Below, piece by piece: positions 54,592-55,676 of a DNA stretch of 64,000 bases. Source of the DNA: Octadecabacter sp. SW4 (lineage in GTDB: Bacteria; Pseudomonadota; Alphaproteobacteria; Rhodobacterales; Rhodobacteraceae); assembly GCF_008065155.1 (NCBI RefSeq), contig NZ_CP042819.1, positions 2,170,001 to 2,234,000 on the forward strand. Reading direction: 5' to 3'. Made by a program: the position numbers and the translations under genes. Position 1 is the stretch's first letter. Each line of letters starts with the position of its first letter. The notes beneath the pieces are model-generated. The model did not search any database. It was not told the DNA's origin and saw only the letters and a program-made list of their open reading frames with translations.

Positions 54592-55101
54592 TCAGGCGGC
54601 CCGGCTGATCAGCACATCTCCGATTTCCTTGGCCGCATCGCCTTCGTCGCCATTGCCCACGGCGGCAATCTCGCGGGTCAGGCGCTCCAACGCGGCTTCA
54701 TAAAGCTGGCGTTCGGAATAGCTTTGCTCGCGTTGATCGTCAGCGCGGTGCAGGTCGCGTACCACTTCGGCAATCGCGATCAGATCGCCCGAGTTGATCT
54801 TTTGCTCGTATTCCTGCGCACGGCGCGACCACATCGCCTTTTTGACCTTGGCTTTGCCGCGCAGGGTTTTCATCGCATGTGCTACGATATCGGGCGAAGA
54901 CAAGCCACGCATCCCGACCTCGGTTGCCTTGTTGGTCGGCACCCGCAGGGTCATCTTGTCTTTTTCGAACGCAATGACGAAAAGTTCCAGTTCAAAACCG
55001 GCGACTTCGTCCTTCTCGATTGACACAATCTTGCCAACCCCATGCGCCGGATAAACGACGAAATCATTGGGGCGGAATTCACTTTTCTTTGACTTGCTCA
55101 T
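54592..55101 (-). CDS. carD: CarD family transcriptional regulator
   Basis: The protein has 169 residues from the ATG at 55101 behind GGAAAGGA. The N-terminal Tudor-like RNA-polymerase-interacting domain has DFVVYPAHGVGKI and ELFVIAFEKDKMTLRVPTNKA; the C-terminal helical DNA-binding part includes MWSRRAQEYEQKINSGDL and SERQLYEAALERL. CarD binds the polymerase beta subunit and stabilises open complexes, notably at rRNA promoters. All transcripts reaching it must pass a terminator in its leader (see the leader entry). Confidence 0.95.
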   Translation of the reverse strand: MSKSKKSEFRPNDFVVYPAHGVGKIVSIEKDEVAGFELELFVIAFEKDKMTLRVPTNKATEVGMRGLSSPDIVAHAMKTLRGKAKVKKAMWSRRAQEYEQKINSGDLIAIAEVVRDLHRADDQREQSYSERQLYEAALERLTREIAAVGNGDEGDAAKEIGDVLISRAA

Positions 55102-55118
55102 AGGTGTCCTTTCCAGAC

Positions 55119-55190
55119 ATCTTGACCGGAGCCGACAAAAAACCCGCAAGTGACAATGTCACCAGCAGGTGTTTCAGGGGCGGTCAAGAT
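55119..55190 (-). promoter_or_regulatory. Structured carD leader RNA (candidate cis-regulator)
   Basis: ATCTTGACCG (55190-55181) and CGGTCAAGAT (55128-55119) form a perfect 10-bp stem that encloses a complete terminator hairpin. The enclosing stem ends just before the ribosome site of carD. The two structures could be exclusive in time: the terminator acts before the 3' arm of the outer stem is made. Confidence 0.5.
55137..55169 (-). terminator. Terminator hairpin inside the carD leader
   Basis: CCTGC-TG-GTGAC-ATT-GTCAC-TT-GCGGG folds into a two-part hairpin and is followed by six T on the transcribed strand, 36 nt before the carD start. It contains the palindrome GTGACA-T-TGTCAC. It may end fdxA transcripts, attenuate carD, or both. 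Confidence 0.7.
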
Positions 55191-55214
55191 CAATATTCTT
55201 GTAGCATTGGCGTT

Positions 55215-55242
55215 ACCATACCACAAAAAACGCCCCAAACAA
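55215..55242 (-). promoter_or_regulatory. Candidate carD promoter
   Basis: TTGTTT (55242-55237), a 16-nt spacer and TATGGT (55220-55215) give a start near 55208 and a leader of about 107 nt that contains the terminator and enclosing stem. Confidence 0.45.
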
Positions 55243-55340
55243 AGCGCCGCGATGCAGCAAGCGGCGATATAGCTTGTTTTTCAGGGTGTTTTGCCGCGTT
55301 TTGAACGCAACGTCACACGGCAAACCACGCGAATCGCGTT

Positions 55341-55676
55341 TTACCCGCCCTCGCCCGGGTTTTCCGAAAACAGGTCGATCTTGCCCGGTTTGCCGTCCAT
55401 CTCGTCGGCATTCGGCAGGGGGTCTTTCTTGGTGATGATGACCGGCCACATCTCGGAATACTTGCGGTTGAACTCGACCCATTTTTCCATGTCCGGCTCG
55501 GTATCGGGGCGGATCGCATCGGCGGGACACTCAGGTTCGCAAACGCCACAGTCGATACATTCGTCAGGGTGGATCACCAGCATGTTTTCGCCCTCGTAGA
55601 AACAGTCCACGGGGCAGACCTCAACGCAATCTGTATATTTGCAGGCAATGCAGTTGTCGTTGACGATATATGTCAT
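55341..55676 (-). CDS. fdxA: Seven-iron ferredoxin FdxA
   Basis: The protein has 111 residues. Two cluster motifs in the first 55 residues: [18 protein letters not shown] for the 3Fe-4S side and [16 protein letters not shown] for the 4Fe-4S side, followed by the C-terminal extension typical of FdxA ([16 protein letters not shown]). It is a low-potential electron carrier in the cytosol. It lies between the S4-protein gene upstream and carD downstream, all on the minus strand, with 240 nt to carD. Confidence 0.96.

Follow-up and report, generated by a model that had tools for sequence, protein, structure and literature searches.

The window analysed here, a 64,000-nucleotide stretch of the Octadecabacter sp. 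SW4 genome, carries on its minus strand fdxA, a promoter, a leader and carD in that order, with the stop codon of fdxA at 55341 and the ATG of carD at 55101 (Table 1). Nearly all relatives in the initial set (80 named loci) preserve the synteny of fdxA and carD. The carD loci that we compared came from genome contigs (these 80 named loci), from a DNA search and from 147 genomes of the family, about one per genus, and gave 213 carD upstream regions after removal of duplicates. The carD leader of the window folds at -39.5 kcal/mol, against -25.6 +/- 3.2 kcal/mol for dinucleotide shuffles (z -4.3, 0/200), and a search of the leader with Rfam covariance models returned no known riboswitch or other Rfam leader at the gathering score. 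Directly 3' of carD stands a strong intrinsic terminator of 12 pairs with a loop of 4 (54571-54544), and just past the fdxA stop codon there is an imperfect 14-bp inverted repeat without a U-tract (55286-55328).

Table 1. Features of the fdxA-carD region, in window coordinates.
Feature	Positions	Strand	Basis or remark
fdxA (7Fe-type ferredoxin)	55341..55676	-	upstream neighbour of carD
Terminator-like hairpin within the carD promoter (-35/spacer)	55229..55248	-	U-tract is the T-rich spacer
carD -35 element CTTTGT (consensus CTTTCA)	55239..55244	-	family-wide profile
End of T-rich spacer and extended -10, TTTTTGTGGTATGGT	55215..55229	-	consensus TTTTTGTGNTATNNT
Predicted transcription start, A, 7 nt past the -10	55208	-	A-rich position, family profile
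Putative leaderless micro-ORF ATG CTA CAA GAA TAT TGA (MLQEY*), AUG at +2	55190..55207	-	
Enclosing 10-bp stem, 5' arm	55181..55190	-	self- versus cross-pairing
Terminator hairpin, including the 13-bp palindrome (55162-55150)	55142..55170	-	covariation
U-tract TTTTTT	55137..55142	-	sequence
GTCGGC motif directly after the U-tract	55131..55136	-	frequent; GTCGCC/GTCGTC/GTCTGG in other relatives
Enclosing stem, 3' arm	55119..55128	-	self- versus cross-pairing
carD Shine-Dalgarno region GGAAAGGA	55107..55114	-	sequence; aligned in relatives
carD coding sequence, 169 aa	54592..55101	-	ATG at 55101

Across relatives the carD promoter follows a profile of CTTTC(A), 18 nt and an end in TTTTTGTGNTATNNT. 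It scores above the 99% shuffle level in 198 of the 213 carD upstream regions, all from the Rhodobacteraceae, a count that is description rather than an independent test because part of these data had gone into training the profile; regions fetched later carry the same motif. A simple promoter scan overlooks this promoter. A preliminary description of the locus had placed the pair TTGTTT-16-TATGGT upstream of carD. Its -10 (TATGGT, 55220-55215) is correct, and its -35 gives way to CTTTGT at 55244-55239, where relatives place the element, with an 18-bp spacer. In the part of PMC8820732 that cites Henry 2021, Rhodobacter CarD is described as repressing its own promoter via an extended -10 and the adjacent T-rich spacer. 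The carD promoter of the window has both an extended -10 and a T-rich upstream spacer, and as such would appear to be of the self-repressed type, the lowering of transcription by CarD being reported second-hand only and for R. sphaeroides.

The arms of the hairpin that overlaps the -35 and spacer covary in 178 relatives, where self-pairing beats cross-species pairing (z -5.1). This hairpin probably ends fdxA transcripts, and the same bases seem to serve both fdxA termination and the carD promoter. The terminator in the leader is therefore likely to act mainly on transcripts that start at the carD promoter itself. The preliminary description had every transcript reaching carD pass a terminator; this holds in that the terminator lies between promoter and ATG, with the reservation that fdxA-derived transcripts may arrive there only rarely.

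That terminator is as first described. The hairpin ACCTGCTGGTGACATTGTCACTTGCGGGT, at 55170-55142 and with one U.U mismatch, runs into TTTTTT at 55142-55137, 35 nt from the carD ATG. It is found both by an energy-based scan and by a covariance model, and is overlooked by a simple terminator scan because of its mismatch. Counting from the conserved promoter, the window's clade has carD leaders of 100-137 nt, and the other relatives have leaders of mostly 140-195 nt. Of 198 leaders, 74% contain a hairpin at least as stable as -10 kcal/mol with a U-tract behind it, compared with 7% of dinucleotide shuffles; its usual place is 30-60 nt upstream of the carD ATG, and a quarter of the leaders have no detectable terminator. 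Among 30 relatives with leaders of the window's type, 10 of the 12 pairs have changes in both partners, pairing holds in 82% of cells, and one internal A.C mismatch is conserved; none of 500 shuffles reaches the covariation score of the hairpin, and no slid register comes near it. The T5-T3 pairing in relatives gave z values of -7.6 and -12. In each of six genomes tested, the carD leader was the only significant match to the hairpin covariance model. The element does not extend across the alphaproteobacteria, since leaders outside the family show no enrichment of the hairpin (4/20, against 14% of shuffles). We hold with moderate confidence that transcription terminates at this hairpin in the cell. 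In many long leaders (L023, L025, L027, L040, L044 and L066 among them) a further hairpin that has a T-run of its own (CCATCC...GGATGGTTTT) lies some 90-100 nt upstream of carD, giving tandem terminator-like hairpins.

The upper stem of the hairpin is the 13-bp palindrome GTGACA-T-TGTCAC at 55162-55150, which had been suggested as a protein site. The presence of such a palindrome in the carD leader is what recommends GTGACATTGTCAC as a DNA operator for a repressor, but we consider this highly improbable, as the letters are kept only in a sister species of the genus (GTGACGATGTCAC, L003) and in other relatives they differ, with compensatory changes that preserve the stem. What is conserved is the pairing and not the site.

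The perfect 10-bp inverted repeat that had been noted around the terminator, ATCTTGACCG at 55190-55181 and CGGTCAAGAT at 55128-55119, is complementary at 10 of 10 positions. In the short-leader clade to which the window belongs, self-pairing of its arms is far above cross-species pairing (z -5.6, p < 2e-4, 0 of 5000 permutations as good), and the covarying segments are the one from the micro-ORF stop (see below) to the hairpin and the one past the U-tract. Long leaders give a weak signal (p 0.0004-0.05, by segment length), and their micro-ORF-bearing subset gives none. The preliminary description had offered covariation among relatives as a check on both stems, and both come through it, the hairpin across relatives and the enclosing stem in the window's clade. 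Immediately 3' of the U-tract, where the window has GTCGGC (55136-55131), relatives often have GTCGCC, GTCGTC or GTCTGG, a motif that takes part in pairing of the enclosing stem. The enclosing stem is nested with the terminator hairpin and compatible with it; since only readthrough RNA can form it, and it is nested in this way, it does not qualify as an antiterminator.

The preliminary description did not include a micro-ORF at 55207-55190 (AUG CUA CAA GAA UAU UGA), which begins at about +2. In the window (MLQEY*) and its clade the stop follows after five codons, with 5-6 codons typical; the last base of the stop codon is, in the window, the first base of the 5' arm of the enclosing stem, and the stop lies about 19 nt upstream of the hairpin. 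Among 46 short leaders, 32 reach their stop after 4-7 codons, and shuffling of the tail leaves 4.1 such cases (maximum 9). Many long leaders have frames of 14-20 codons, and frames of 16-22 codons occur in 40/76, with about 10 expected. The quantity that is fixed across micro-ORFs of such varied length is the distance from stop to terminator. In 41 of the 80 leaders with both a 5'-proximal ATG and a terminator, the stop of the ATG frame precedes the hairpin by 14-24 nt, whereas the other two frames give 2 and 12 and shuffles give 7.2 (maximum 13 of 200); raw counts of this kind are inflated by related species, and the frame controls are drawn from the same sequences. All three stop codons occur at the fixed place in long leaders (TAA 9, TGA 6, TAG 5), which argues for function as a stop rather than as a structural triplet. 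About half of the terminator-bearing leaders have no near-start ATG or no fixed spacing, and a near-start AUG is also frequent in leaders that have retained no short frame. A functional peptide was rejected, since the peptides evolve without purifying selection (pN/pS 0.9-1.0); with the peptides unconstrained, it is the act of reading that would matter if the frame is read, and not the product. No regulatory codon for one amino acid is common to MLQEY, MLPKT, MMRFA, MMSTTGMCSTQMLVLEL and the others.

No upstream segment covaries with the arms of the terminator hairpin, and the uORF-U, uORF-T5 and U-T5 pairings are absent or avoided; the upstream sequence avoids pairing with the 5' arm of the hairpin (p > 0.99). 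In predicted folds of the nascent RNA, the terminator forms with a probability of about 0.97, whether or not a ribosome occupies the micro-ORF stop. With no antiterminator detectable, and the hairpin predicted to be indifferent to that ribosome, a classical two-state attenuator is not supported, and the terminator looks constitutive and protected rather than switched by RNA. A switch between alternative stems is likewise not supported, the two stems being nested and compatible and an antiterminator pairing undetectable. A translational switch at the carD ribosome site was rejected, as occupancy of the micro-ORF leaves predicted access there unchanged. Attenuation or feedback in the carD leader, as raised in the preliminary description, is partly supported: the leader terminator is conserved and covaries, but the feedback on carD already reported for Rhodobacter acts at the promoter. 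Of the features of ribosome-mediated attenuators of the trp/cysS type, the carD leader has a leader ORF that ends just before the terminator, and it lacks two defining ones, regulatory codons and a mutually exclusive antiterminator. Of those of the UpsM type, it has a promoter upstream, an intrinsic terminator in the 5' UTR and compensatory changes in relatives.

At the level of sequence, then, the promoter, the hairpin and its U-tract, the enclosing stem and the geometry of start, frame and stop are conserved, and we have high confidence in this anatomy. Given a conserved terminator in the leader and a tiny frame immediately before it, the leader itself probably throttles CarD output. We favour, at a probability of roughly 0.55, the view that the carD leader is a 5' attenuator, in which leaky termination limits carD expression in addition to the feedback at the promoter, and a ribosome on a leaderless micro-ORF comes to rest just short of the terminator. 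RNA polymerase would start at the conserved carD promoter of the self-repressed type (at about 55208) and meet the leaky intrinsic terminator about 70 nt downstream; part of the transcripts, perhaps most, would end as a leader RNA of about 70 nt, and CarD would be made from readthrough only. A ribosome on the leaderless micro-ORF would occupy the 5' end and stop just outside footprint reach of the hairpin, the gap corresponding, by our own estimate from standard toeprint geometry, to about one ribosome half-footprint plus a few nucleotides. Such a terminating ribosome would keep the hairpin free to form and leave its flank single-stranded. Within the window's clade, the enclosing stem would then close in RNA that has read through, bringing the micro-ORF stop codon beside the carD ribosome site. 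The ribosome may tune readthrough or hand-over to carD, or may protect the RNA end; regulation may be conditional, and our confidence in the specific regulatory logic is low.

Translation of the micro-ORF, by leaderless initiation and hence according to ribosome or initiation status, might instead itself change passage through the terminator and so couple CarD, and via CarD rRNA transcription, to translation capacity. Ribosome-gated attenuation of this kind is possible, although we consider it somewhat doubtful. It is consistent with the fixed and frame-specific distance from stop to hairpin in uORFs that range from 5 to 20 codons, with the inclusion of the stop codon in the enclosing stem of the window's clade, and with the documented translation-sensing attenuation by a uORF in another alphaproteobacterium (PMC12218461), but the leader contains no alternative fold that a ribosome could switch, and the uORFs have no regulatory codon in common. 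More tentative again is a ribosome-gated attenuator shared by the whole family: a leaderless micro-ORF, 5-20 codons long and of arbitrary sequence, would gauge translation initiation and so determine carD readthrough, with no amino-acid code, antiterminator or ligand.

It is unlikely that the terminator serves mainly to release a stable trans-acting sRNA, about 70 nt long and derived from the 5' UTR, with carD riding on readthrough. Architecture and family are those of UpsM, for which trans action has been proposed, the hairpin is carD-specific in the genomes tested, and within the clade its sequence and not only its pairing is kept (CCYGACGG...CCGCCGGG). However, the conservation expected of a seed region is missing from the leader sequence outside the hairpin and beyond the short-leader clade, and the searchable literature yielded no sRNA from the carD leader locus. 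Plain insulation, in which the hairpin only stops stray transcription from fdxA or from the antisense side, with the micro-ORF arising incidentally in the initially transcribed sequence, is quite improbable. The position of fdxA upstream of carD in nearly all relatives would suit it, as would the near-start AUG where no short frame exists and the unconstrained peptides; set against these are the separate promoter hairpin, which already appears to serve the fdxA end, and the frame-specific placement of the stop. Lying downstream of the conserved carD promoter, the leader terminator cannot spare carD transcripts.

CarD activates many promoters in alphaproteobacteria, including those of rRNA, and is essential in several of these bacteria (PMC8407463). 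On the favoured view of a leaky leader terminator with a micro-ORF ahead of it, the conserved pair would constitute a second, RNA-level control on this global polymerase factor, and the model predicts for carD both a leader RNA and a link to translation. Ribosome gating, if true, would tie an activator of rRNA transcription to translation capacity. A search of openly accessible papers, with few subscription titles among them, returned no description of the carD leader.

Leader terminators and uORF attenuators are already known kinds, and the nearest in this order are the cysS leader and UpsM. As far as PMC8820732 reports it from Henry 2021, the carD system of Rhodobacter sphaeroides shares with the window a T-rich spacer and an extended -10 upstream of carD and is one of promoter feedback, to which the leader terminator and micro-ORF would be a separate layer. 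The duf1127 attenuator of Sinorhizobium meliloti (PMC12218461) is likewise an alphaproteobacterial leader uORF, one that senses translation and controls the gene behind it; it is Rho-dependent and has a longer uORF with its own ribosome site, in contrast to the intrinsic terminator and leaderless AUG of carD. The cysS leader of Rhodobacterales, with uORFC-8-2, has a uORF and a leader element in the same order and has been proposed to act by ribosome-mediated attenuation (PMC8632094), but it combines cysteine codons with ribosome stalling and readthrough, whereas the carD micro-ORFs have no shared codon and no antiterminator. The UpsM/mraZ 5' leader of the Rhodobacteraceae (PMC5089854) is, like that of carD, a long 5' UTR of an essential gene with an intrinsic terminator between promoter and gene. 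The UpsM terminator precedes an essential operon and lets through about 1 in 100 transcripts; expression by readthrough, and a short RNA, would be expected for carD as well. After the UpsM case, carD would be a second essential gene with a leader terminator in this family. UpsM is 206 nt long with a sequence and folding of its own, and its sORF overlaps the terminator and occurs only in R. sphaeroides species; the putative leaderless micro-ORF of carD, by contrast, has its stop upstream of the hairpin at a constant spacing, and does so in many genera.
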